From: Embleya scabrispora DSM 41855
Lineage (GTDB): Bacteria; Actinomycetota; Actinomycetes; Streptomycetales; Streptomycetaceae
Length of the DNA: 64,000 nt
NCBI RefSeq assembly: GCF_000372745.1
Contig: NZ_KB889561.1
Location: 811 to 64,810 of the forward strand
Direction of reading: 5' to 3'
Part shown: one piece after another, positions 20,122 to 23,740 of the stretch
Numbering within the stretch: position 1 is the first letter of the stretch
Layout of the letters: every line of letters begins with the position of its first letter
Notes under the pieces: generated by a model
Database searches by the model: none
What the model was told of the DNA's origin: nothing
What the model saw: the letters and a program-made list of their open reading frames with translations, nothing else
Position numbers and translations under genes: made by a program

Positions 20122-21207
20122 TCAGCCGATCGACGAGCCGAACATCCCACCGATCCGACGGATCTCCTCCAGCGGATACGCGGTCTCCCTGCTCTCGTGC
20201 CGGAGTTCGCGAAAGAAGTCCGCCATCACTGCGGTGAGCGGCGCGTGGCGGGCGATGATCGCCGCGGCCGCCTCCGGGATTCCCGTGGGGCGCTCGCCTC
20301 GGGCATACGCTCGAACCCGCGCCTCCCGGTCGTCTCTCCCATGCCCGTAAAGGGCCGTGACCAGCCAGTTCACCAGGTAGGTGATCGAGTAGCAACGGTC
20401 ATAGGTCCGATGCCGGTCGAAGAAGCCGGCCTCCTCCCACGAGAGCTCGAATCGGGAGGAGACAGCAAGGCCGTAGTCCGCGAAGTAGAGGCGCTTGCCG
20501 TCGGTCAGGATGTTCTCGAAGTGGGCGTCGAAGTGCAGAAGGCCGCGGCCGTTCATGAACGTCGTTCCCGCTGCCAGGTCTCTCCGCACCATGCCGCAGG
20601 CCCGGTCGGCGGCCTCGTCGCCGGCGTGCATCTGCCGGCCCAGCCACTGATGCAGGTTCTGCGGTATGTACTCCAGAAACAGTGCGACGCTCGCGGAGGA
20701 CTGCTCGAGAGCCTCGATCCGGCGGCGCACCGCTGATCCGCCGCCCCAGTAGGCGACGGCCCGTTCGACGTCGGCCAGTTCCTCGGGCAGAGGCGTCGAA
20801 TCCGGCAGCACTCGCCAGTGATACATCAGCGGAAAGCCCTCGTACTCGCCTGCGAGCACCCAGTTCGTCGTCATGGTGTGCACGGCGAGTTCCCGCCAGG
20901 CCCCGAAGCTCGGCCCGCCGATGCCGTACTGGCAAAACACGGGCAGCGCGAACAAGTTCGCCGTGGACCGCACGCTCTCCGGTCGCATCTCCACATCGGT
21001 GAGGGGCACACGCTTCACGAAGACCGGGGTTCCGGCGACTTCCAACAGAGCCGACTTCCCGCCGATACCGGAACCGATCGGCTCCGCCTTGTCCAGCAGT
21101 TCGCGCAGCGCGCCGTCACTGCACCGGGCCAGCGATGTGGAAACGGCGCCATGCGTGGCGAAACGCGCACCGCGCGACATGTCAGGGCACTTCACTGCTG
21201 CCTCCAT
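20122..21207 (-). CDS. Protein-kinase-like phosphotransferase
   Basis: 361 residues with a divergent kinase or aminoglycoside-phosphotransferase fold. A glycine-rich beginning (IGSGIGGKSALLEV), the Lys of TPVFVKRV, the catalytic loop HFDAHFENIL (H-x-D-x4-N) and the metal-binding FADYGLA in place of DFG are all present, so it should be active. It fits the actinobacterial 'protein kinase family protein' group of unknown targets. The region GPSFGAWRELAVHTMTTNWV is conserved in that group. ATG 21207 is first in frame. Neighbours give no partner; it is convergent with the GNAT gene. Confidence 0.78.
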   Translation of the reverse strand: MEAAVKCPDMSRGARFATHGAVSTSLARCSDGALRELLDKAEPIGSGIGGKSALLEVAGTPVFVKRVPLTDVEMRPESVRSTANLFALPVFCQYGIGGPSFGAWRELAVHTMTTNWVLAGEYEGFPLMYHWRVLPDSTPLPEELADVERAVAYWGGGSAVRRRIEALEQSSASVALFLEYIPQNLHQWLGRQMHAGDEAADRACGMVRRDLAAGTTFMNGRGLLHFDAHFENILTDGKRLYFADYGLAVSSRFELSWEEAGFFDRHRTYDRCYSITYLVNWLVTALYGHGRDDREARVRAYARGERPTGIPEAAAAIIARHAPLTAVMADFFRELRHESRETAYPLEEIRRIGGMFGSSIG

Positions 21208-21420: not shown

Positions 21421-21521
21421 GCTTGCCGGAGTCGCCCCGGATCGGTGCTTGGCGTTCGGCTGTTGCTGCCGTGAGTGAGGCTCTTGACCCTCACGTGGCG
21501 TCAGGCCGCATAGTCGGTGCC

Positions 21522-22637
21522 GTGGAGAATCACTGGACCGTGGGACGTGTGGCAGAGCTGGCCGGCGTGAGCGTCCGCACGCTGCATCACTATGACGAGA
21601 TCGGACTCGTTCGGCCGTCGGCGCGGACCGTGGCCGGCTACCGGGCCTATTCGGCAGGCGACGTCGAGCGGCTGCGGGAGGTGCTGGCCTACCGACGGTT
21701 GGGCTTCGGGCTGCGGGAGGTCGCCGAACTGGTCGGCGACCCGTCCACCGACGCAATCGCGCACCTGCGCCGACTGCGCGGCCTGCTGCTGGAGCGGCGT
21801 GATCGCGCCGACGCCATGGTGACGGCCATCGACCGGGAACTCGAGGCACGAGCGAAGGGATTGAAGGTGACACCGGAGGAACAACTGGAGATGCTCGGTG
21901 CACGGCTGTACGACACGATCGGCGGCGCCTACACCGCGACACGGCGTACCGAGCCGCAGATCGCCGCGCAGATCTGGGACGCGCTCGGGGACGCGCAGAC
22001 GGTGCTGAACGTCGGGGCCGGCACCGGCTCCTACGAGCCTGCCGATCGCGACGTGATCGCGGTGGAGCCATCGGCGGTCATGCGGGCGCAGCGGCCCGCC
22101 GGCTCGGCGCCGTGCGTGGCCGCCGCCGCGGAGAGCCTGCCGTTCGAGGACGACTCCTTCGACGTCGCGATGGCCGTCTCCACCGTTCACCACTGGGGAG
22201 ACCCGATGGCGGGGCTGCGCGAGATGCGGCGCGTGGCCCGCCGCGTGGTGGTGCTCACGTTCGACACCGACGAGCCCGGATGGCCGGACCGGTTCTGGCT
22301 TACCCGCGACTACCTGCCCGAGTTCGCCGCCGTCCTCGCGGAATTTCCCTCGCTTGCCGGGATGGCCGACGCGATCGGCGCCCGCGCGGAACCGGTGCTC
22401 ATCCCGTGGGACTGCGCTGACGGCCTGTTCGAGGCGTACTGGCGCCGACCGGGGGCGTATCTGGAGGATCACGTGCGCCGTGCGATGTCGGTGTGGACGA
22501 GGGTCGGGCCGGAGGCCGAGCAGCGGGCGGTACGAAGCCTCGGCGACGACCTCGAATCCGGCCGGTGGGCCGAGCACAACAGCGACCTCGCCGACCTCGA
22601 CGCGGCAGATCTCGGCCTCCGATTGCTCATGGCCTGA
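21522..22637 (+). CDS. MerR-type DNA-binding domain fused to a SAM methyltransferase
   Basis: 371 residues in one frame. Residues 1-75 are a MerR winged helix (VGRVAELAGVSVRTLHHYDE, IGLVRPSARTVAGYRAYS). A dimerisation helix follows (HLRRLRGLLLERRDRADAMV), then VTPEEQLEMLG as in TipA-like proteins. Instead of the TipAS ligand domain there is a class I methyltransferase: ARLYDTIGGAYTATRRTEP, the SAM motif VLNVGAGTGSYEP, acidic AVEPSAVM, and LPFEDDSFDVAMAVSTVHHW. GTG 21522 is chosen because the MerR domain begins there. It could be a methyltransferase under direct autoregulation, or a regulator whose effector domain binds SAM. Confidence 0.85.
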   Translation: MENHWTVGRVAELAGVSVRTLHHYDEIGLVRPSARTVAGYRAYSAGDVERLREVLAYRRLGFGLREVAELVGDPSTDAIAHLRRLRGLLLERRDRADAMVTAIDRELEARAKGLKVTPEEQLEMLGARLYDTIGGAYTATRRTEPQIAAQIWDALGDAQTVLNVGAGTGSYEPADRDVIAVEPSAVMRAQRPAGSAPCVAAAAESLPFEDDSFDVAMAVSTVHHWGDPMAGLREMRRVARRVVVLTFDTDEPGWPDRFWLTRDYLPEFAAVLAEFPSLAGMADAIGARAEPVLIPWDCADGLFEAYWRRPGAYLEDHVRRAMSVWTRVGPEAEQRAVRSLGDDLESGRWAEHNSDLADLDAADLGLRLLMA

Positions 22638-23539: not shown

Positions 23540-23740
23540 CTACGTCCCGGTGCCGCGGGCACGGGCACGGGCACGGGCACGGGCACGGGCACGGGCACGG
23601 GCACGGGAGGCTGCCGGTGTCTCGCCCGCGCGATGGCGGAAGAACTTGGTGAAGACCGAGGAGTCCGGGAAGCCCAGCCGGTCTCCAATGGCGCCGGCGG
23701 GCAACTCGGTGTGCAAGAGCAGCCGTTTGGCCTCCGGTAC
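23540..23740 (-). pseudogene. AraC family regulator, C-terminal HTH remnant with Ala-Arg repeat tail
   Basis: The minus frame gives [40 protein letters not shown] and TPAASRARA, which is the second helix-turn-helix of AraC regulators with the usual TP-x-xFR ending. No sensor domain precedes it; upstream residues are unrelated. After the HTH the frame enters a GGGCAC microsatellite and becomes about nine Ala-Arg dipeptides before stopping at 23540. It is a decayed 3' end. Confidence 0.65.
23557..23604. repeat. (GGGCAC)8 microsatellite
   Basis: Eight perfect hexamers, 48 bases, flanked by near-copies. On the minus strand they extend the AraC remnant by Ala-Arg dipeptides. Perfect unit identity suggests recent slippage expansion. 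Confidence 0.95.

Follow-up and report, generated by a model that had tools for sequence, protein, structure and literature searches.

A gene in the 64,000-nucleotide stretch of Embleya scabrispora DSM 41855 DNA analysed here (the window) raises two questions: whether a TipA-type MerR domain and a SAM-dependent methyltransferase truly share one polypeptide chain, and what such a chain would do. The initial annotation, which pointed out the arrangement, offered a SAM-level switch, a drug-methylating enzyme that represses itself, or a recent fusion across a lost stop as explanations.

One open frame encodes a MerR domain and a methyltransferase

The frame runs from GTG to TGA over 371 codons without interruption (Table 1), as had been noted, and the domain search proposed in the initial annotation finds both halves. 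Specifically, matches above the Pfam cut-offs cover residues 6-43 (MerR, E = 3.1e-14), 6-70 (MerR_1, E = 5.1e-14) and 162-241 (Methyltransf_11, E = 1.4e-13). Two of the best relatives among PDB sequences divide the chain cleanly into two: TipAL-N (2vz4) matches residues 5-111 (E = 6.1e-29), bearing out the TipA-like assignment, and the methyltransferase 3ege matches residues 126-369 (E = 5.5e-23). The N-terminal winged helix-turn-helix with its dimer helix places the protein in the MerR family, and the Rossmann-like fold, with motif I exactly as first quoted and an acidic residue after strand 2, places the C-terminal half among class I SAM-dependent methyltransferases. The closest solved relative of this half, and the nearest in fold, is 3ege, labelled by its depositors as a methyltransferase 'from antibiotic biosynthesis pathway'; natural-product methyltransferases are among the lower fold matches. 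The sole PADLOC match, mad1 at residues 4-52, is the MerR match.

PF07739 (TipAS) is absent from the fusion protein in the Pfam search (11 families at E up to 0.1), whereas it is present in the two closest TipA-type relatives scanned (E = 6.4e-38 and 4.1e-40); the methyltransferase stands in place of the drug-binding domain of TipA, as the initial annotation had recognized. Much of the SAM motif, together with E182, H223 and W225, is conserved in at least 90% of the fusions and of the stand-alone enzymes. The AlphaFold2 model of the fusion protein reached a pLDDT of 86.9 with a 62-row alignment and 61.7 with 26 rows, and its dimer helix was equated by position with alpha5 of TipA-class proteins.

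The start codon is probably the GTG at 21522: TTGACC lies 38 nt before the GTG or ATG used in 88 of the 96 full-span loci described below, 37 nt before it in 5 and at other distances in 3. In the plasmid annotation of NZ_CP108498.1 the fusion protein starts 18 nt further in, probably because the predicted leaderless start comes without a ribosome site. Codons 116 (GTG in 81 and ACG in 5 of 86 distinct genes) and 124 (ATG in 63 of 86) are candidate internal starts. The window's 11.39-Mb genome holds 13 matches and no second full-length copy.

Table 1. Coordinates of the fusion gene, its parts and its promoter in the window
Feature	Position	Strand	Basis
-35 element TTGACC	21484..21489	+	At most 95 nt upstream in 96/96 full-span loci and 22/22 family-sample fusions
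19-bp spacer CTCACGTGGCGTCAGGCCG, imperfect dyad, predicted MerR operator	21490..21508	+	16/19 positions at least 92% identical
-10 element CATAGT	21509..21514	+	Each base 85-99% conserved
7 nt from -10 to start codon; predicted leaderless mRNA	21515..21521	+	TTGACC spacing
Fusion gene, TipA-type MerR/methyltransferase, 371 aa	21522..22637	+	Frame, Pfam, PDB, dN/dS
MerR winged helix-turn-helix domain, residues 5-72	21534..21737	+	
Long helix, residues 78-111, predicted dimer helix	21753..21854	+	AlphaFold2 model
Retained first TipAS-type helix PEEQLEM, residues 118-124, alpha6 equivalent	21873..21893	+	Alignment with 10 TipA-type proteins, model
Fusion junction, residues 125-128	21894..21905	+	pLDDT < 50 at 124-127; stand-alone relatives begin here
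Class I SAM-dependent methyltransferase domain, residues 129-371	21906..22634	+	
SAM-binding motif I VLNVGAGTGSYEP, residues 161-173	22002..22040	+	Nearly all conserved in fusions and stand-alone enzymes

The fusion is widespread and under purifying selection

The tblastn search gave hits at 112 loci, of which 16 were left out as not full-span (the damaged or partial L114, L028, L115 and L029, ten stand-alone enzymes, L002 and L003). The 96 full-span loci represent 86 distinct genes, the other ten being DNA duplicates, mostly one genome under two handles. The fusion is uninterrupted at 370-372 aa in 95 of them (371 aa in 91 loci, 370 in two, 372 in two); the remaining one, L105, has 433 aa and was trimmed to 380 residues for alignment. 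Median dN/dS, calculated from 246-250 of 250 randomly drawn pairs of distinct genes, amounts to 0.20 in the MerR half and to 0.21 in both the linker and the methyltransferase half. Both halves and the linker are under similar purifying selection.

In the class sample, 65 of 394 genomes have hits at E <= 1e-40, with 18 full-length fusions (the window's own included), and most of the other genomes with hits have one half only. In the family sample, a MerR half at least 76% identical is present in 22 of 61 genomes (6 of these 22 already counted among the loci above), and each of these 22 halves continues into the methyltransferase within a 371-aa frame. In the own-phylum profile search, 7 of 396 genomes had full fusions; in that sample these 7 all belong to the window's family, and outside that family only halves turned up. 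A frame from outside the class (L184, genome G501), which starts at a contig end and may lack its N-terminus, was counted as stand-alone.

Beyond the phylum, the search for the fusion covered a species-genome scan and plasmid and phage collections. The scan (84,980 genomes, close relatives only) retained 80 of the 95 confirmed loci. Of these 80, 78 span the protein, and their hosts are Streptomyces, Kitasatospora, Nonomuraea, Planomonospora, Planobispora, Sphaerisporangium, Streptosporangium, Kribbella, Catellatospora and one Isoptericola MAG. The plasmid collection has 599 matching records, of which 17 reach a coverage of at least 80% of the protein; Streptomyces accounts for 13 of the 17 (the match is split into several pieces in some of the 17, and one record is 11.9 Mb long). 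None of the 27 matching records in the phage collection covers 80% of the fusion protein; the best, MT838446.1, encodes a MerR-TipAS regulator and no methyltransferase. Named 'Bacteriophage sp.', that record also carries thymidylate kinase, DNA polymerase III delta-type and TAP-like hydrolase genes, and resembles a bacterial contig more than a phage.

The fusion layout is real and widespread. The initial annotation knew of no fused design of this type; the fusion is not unique, and 10 of the 17 plasmid records already annotate it, as 'MerR family transcriptional regulator'. We found no description of a MerR-methyltransferase fusion in the open-licence literature. MerR/methyltransferase architectures presumably exist in InterPro.

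Separately, the Catellatospora tritici genome has two fusion copies on different scaffolds (L094 and L095), with identical coding DNA and 95 identical bases upstream.

The junction points to one fusion event

Ten TipA-type proteins from class genomes are 58-67% identical to the fusion over the MerR part, and the six closest stand-alone enzymes are 66-78% identical to its C-terminal half. A typical TipA-type protein reads ...ARAMGMRLTPEEQLEVFG-TDKVGGEW..., running into its own C-terminal part; the closest stand-alone methyltransferases start MSGAQLYDTIG or similar; and the fusion junction reads ...TPEEQLEMLG-ARLYDTIG.... Diverged fusions are likewise worded half like TipA and half like a stand-alone enzyme at the junction, as in ARAMGMNTTPEEQLKVFG-AQLYD (L025), with L023, L026, L027 and L113 similar. 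Judged from these alignments, a TipA N-terminus is joined to a methyltransferase at the point where TipAS begins.

In a protein tree built from 25 fusions and 39 stand-alone enzymes (the stand-alone rows L037, L176, L169 and L179, and also L039, left out), all fusions lie on one side of one branch (98/95), nested in the stand-alone enzymes, which are themselves widespread in Actinomycetota. The tree is most simply read as the outcome of a single fusion event.

We considered whether the frame could be due to chance, to recent read-through of two separate genes, to a lost stop or to an assembly error, and rejected this explanation. The annotated plasmid records do name the fusion just a MerR regulator, as would suit it; the 95 of 96 intact loci, the single clade, the selection on the linker and the diverged junction wording contradict it so firmly that we give it practically no weight. 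A recent fusion across a lost stop, in particular, is at odds with one clade that spans many genera under purifying selection, and the intact fusions contradict the picture, also raised in the initial annotation, of two halves that are always separate with a stop at the junction.

Damaged copies were seen as well. L028 (genome G016) and L115 (Microbispora amethystogenes) have lost most of the MerR domain and have extra bases in the promoter spacer; their methyltransferase frame stays open, making each a natural enzyme-only remnant. In L120 (G151:C4:253500-259500), a second fusion copy, the promoter and MerR half are kept (88% identical) and the frame departs from the fusion right at the junction; a transposase-type protein (Pfam rve, E = 7.6e-23) is encoded on the opposite strand of the DNA next to it.

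A conserved promoter with an overlong spacer precedes the gene

The gene is preceded by a promoter with the consensus TTGACC-CTCACGTGGCGTCAGGCTG-CATAGT-CGGTGCC-GTG, and in the window this promoter and predicted operator (21484-21514) fall inside the stretch 21424-21521 that the initial annotation had named. Over 86 distinct upstream sequences, 16 of 19 spacer positions are at least 92% conserved, and conservation falls off upstream of the -35 element. The 7 nt between the -10 element and the start codon suggest that the mRNA is probably leaderless. Spacers of 19-20 bp are typical of the targets of MerR regulators, which activate promoters via DNA distortion (PMC9909328, partial text), and the conserved TTGACC-N19-CATAGT has such an overlong spacer, with a predicted operator in it. 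Because this spacing is typical of MerR-activated promoters (PMC9909328, partial text), the self-repression first suggested is less likely than self-activation upon ligand binding.

Among the ten closest TipA-type genes, TTGACC occurs within 150 nt in nine and is lacking in L133; in seven of the nine, a -10-like hexamer follows after 19 bp. The fusions have kept a TipA-style promoter. This likeness of promoter and N-terminus, together with the TipA precedent (PMC7762955, partial text), favours a TipA-like trap, a protein that would bind and sequester a drug stoichiometrically and would have lost methyl transfer. We consider such a trap improbable: the SAM core, H223 and W225 are retained as in stand-alone enzymes, and selection is equally strong on the methyltransferase and MerR halves, although a trap that still binds SAM would be expected to retain the SAM core and remain under selection too.

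The operator was searched for, allowing at most 3 mismatches, in 16 of 18 class-sample carriers (G217 and G011 left out) and in 8 non-carriers, all of the window's family. It is present at the fusion gene in 16 of 16 carriers and absent from all 8 non-carriers, and the window's own genome has no site beyond the one at the gene. Of the 19 sites in the 16 carriers, 17 lie at fusion copies (including the damaged second copy in G151), and the remaining two (G340 and G089) precede a glyoxalase-like gene. Since a MerR-TipAS gene follows the glyoxalase-like gene in G089, the two extra sites probably belong to another regulator.

These two genes (L188 and L189) are glyoxalase/bleomycin-resistance-like (PF00903, weak in L189), and have promoters of the same 19-bp-spacer kind, apparently leaderless. 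They may represent another TipA-type resistance unit.

The site counts bear on a switch set by the level of SAM, or of SAM and SAH, in which the methyltransferase fold would serve as the SAM receptor of a MerR switch and catalysis would be secondary or lost. The strongly conserved SAM motif and the ability of ligands to make MerR proteins change promoter shape (PMC9909328, partial text) are consistent with such a switch. Control of SAM or methionine genes would be expected of a SAM sensor, whereas fusion copies account for 17 of the 19 sites and the window's genome has the gene's own site alone; furthermore, residues beyond the SAM motif are conserved with stand-alone enzymes as well. This early suggestion is thus weakened, as the operator, in the carriers covered by the search, hardly occurs away from the gene itself, and we now rate it a long shot. 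Among the rival explanations, the scarcity of other operator sites weighs most against this one.

The gene has spread across actinomycete families

The count of homologs and their neighbours proposed in the initial annotation revealed no conserved neighbour: among 75 loci with at least 9 kb of sequence, the commonest neighbouring gene family occurs in 6, and no neighbour family occurs in more than 2 of 19 diverged loci. The gene caller recovered the fusion itself in 66 of the 75 and 16 of the 19 loci, so it can miss genes, but it did detect synteny between L230 and L236. Upstream of the gene, 4173 of 4560 pairs (ten duplicates included) have in common a stretch that adjoins the gene and extends for a median of 42 nt, which corresponds to the promoter; downstream, just 81 of 4560 pairs share any stretch. 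Some close relatives share more than the promoter (276 nt upstream for L001 and L014). Inspection by eye of 29 aligned loci revealed ragged flanks and no shared mobile-element ends. The lack of a conserved neighbour fits a unit that needs no partner.

In the window itself, there is no tRNA. A 361-aa frame upstream of the fusion gene (20122-21207, - strand) has a weak protein-kinase match (PF00069, 19.3 bits, below the cut-off), and a perfect tandem repeat of CGGGCA (23556-23607, 8.7 copies) lies in overlapping open frames reading GTGTGT, HGHGHG or PVPVPV.

In the tree of fusion genes, host families are intermingled, and many forks are weakly supported. In comparisons with recA (G039, which has no recA match, and G011 left out), fusion DNA identity exceeds that of recA in 38 of 65 cross-family pairs, with a median dS of 0.25 versus 0.45 (Nei-Gojobori on GC-rich genes, hence rough), and in 14 of 55 within-family pairs. 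The window's fusion is 92-94% identical in DNA to those of five genomes of one other family, for which recA is ~84% identical; this control is rough because recA from the window's genome resembles that of another family at least as closely as that of its own. The gene has spread between actinomycete families, in part at an earlier time or vertically, given that recA is at least as similar as the fusion in 27 of the 65 cross-family pairs and in the comparison with G217 from a third family (0.846 for recA, 0.827 for the fusion).

The distribution and the neighbourhood also bear on a metabolic sensor, in which the enzyme would act on an endogenous metabolite and the MerR part would match the enzyme level to the substrate, as autoregulated housekeeping. 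That stand-alone relatives are widespread in Actinomycetota, like an ordinary metabolic enzyme, and that no gene family, resistance or other, travels with the fusion agree with this explanation. The patchy presence (18 of 394 class genomes, 22 of 61 family genomes), the cross-family spread and the damaged copies suit an optional trait better, and we regard a metabolic sensor as unlikely, if the least unlikely of the rivals.

A proposed self-activating sense-and-methylate gene

In TipA, the unliganded drug domain blocks DNA binding via alpha6-alpha7, drug binding releases the block, and the released protein activates genes including its own; TipA is described as a minimal autoregulated drug-resistance system (PMC7762955, partial text). 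Our preferred reading, to which we assign a probability of roughly 0.55, is that the fusion may be a solo, self-activating sense-and-methylate gene, derived from the TipA class by replacement of the drug trap with an enzyme. A dimer would occupy the spacer in the gene's own promoter; the methyltransferase pocket would be filled, with or without SAM, by a small molecule that is probably a toxic natural product; the retained alpha6 helix would then move, and the dimer would be released or reshaped. The DNA-binding domains would kink the 19-bp spacer, allowing RNA polymerase to start a leaderless mRNA, and the extra enzyme would methylate the inducer, the product would leave and the gene would switch off. 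With the same domain as sensor and remedy, turnover would reset the switch.

Genomic evidence of several kinds speaks for the sense-and-methylate reading: the intact fusions, the selection on them, the gene's own promoter and operator, the lack of a partner, the cross-family spread, the plasmid copies and the kept SAM core. Against it counts the promoter type, which is less pronounced among more distant TipA-type genes, 3 of 8 having TTGACC within 150 nt together with the dyad. Furthermore, the alpha7 part of the TipA switch is gone, so the coupling must work differently; the neighbours look random and provide no supporting link to biosynthetic or resistance genes; and the open methyltransferase frames of L028 and L115, like the common stand-alone enzymes, imply that the enzyme can be useful without the switch.

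A bolder version, to which we would give slightly less than an even chance, is a mobile one-gene resistance circuit, in which the ligand pocket of a transcription factor is a working enzyme, substrate turns the gene on, methylation turns it off, and the promoter and gene (~1.15 kb) travel between actinomycete families without a partner gene. If the proposal is true, sensor, activator and detoxifying enzyme would be one chain from one gene, a catalytic counterpart of TipA's trap. The fusion would also be a ready-made biosensor for its small molecule, and a promoter-reporter screen could reveal the ligand directly. Many actinomycetes are antibiotic producers, and names such as 'MerR family transcriptional regulator' would hide a class of small-molecule-modifying enzymes among them.

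Comparison with known systems

BmrR, EcmrR and other MerR multidrug regulators have MerR domains homologous to that of the fusion; to our knowledge, their ligand domains are other binding folds and not SAM-dependent enzymes. Regulators of the BmrR/EcmrR type act at 19-bp-spacer promoters activated by DNA distortion (PMC9909328, partial text), a spacer like that of the fusion. Stand-alone 3ege-type methyltransferases (Methyltransf_11; L030-L036, L121-L124 and others) belong to the same family as the C-terminal half and have the same SAM core, and, unlike the fusion, have no MerR domain in the frames examined.

The TipA class (TipAL/TipAS, Mta, SkgA and AlbA; MerR with PF07739) resembles the fusion in the MerR part, the dimer helix and the first TipAS-type helix (TPEEQLEVFG in TipA-type relatives, TPEEQLEMLG in the fusion), and most of the ten TipA-type genes have a 19-bp-spacer promoter with a related dyad. 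The one-gene autoregulated layout is described for TipA (PMC7762955, partial text) and predicted for the fusion from the position of the operator. In contrast to the class, the fusion has a methyltransferase of ~240 residues instead of TipAS, has lost alpha7 of the switch, and mostly lacks the methionine (ATG) that the TipA relatives have near the TipAS start. The fusion belongs to the MerR family yet lacks PF07739, the domain that defines the TipA class, and we infer, by analogy, that it works like TipA.
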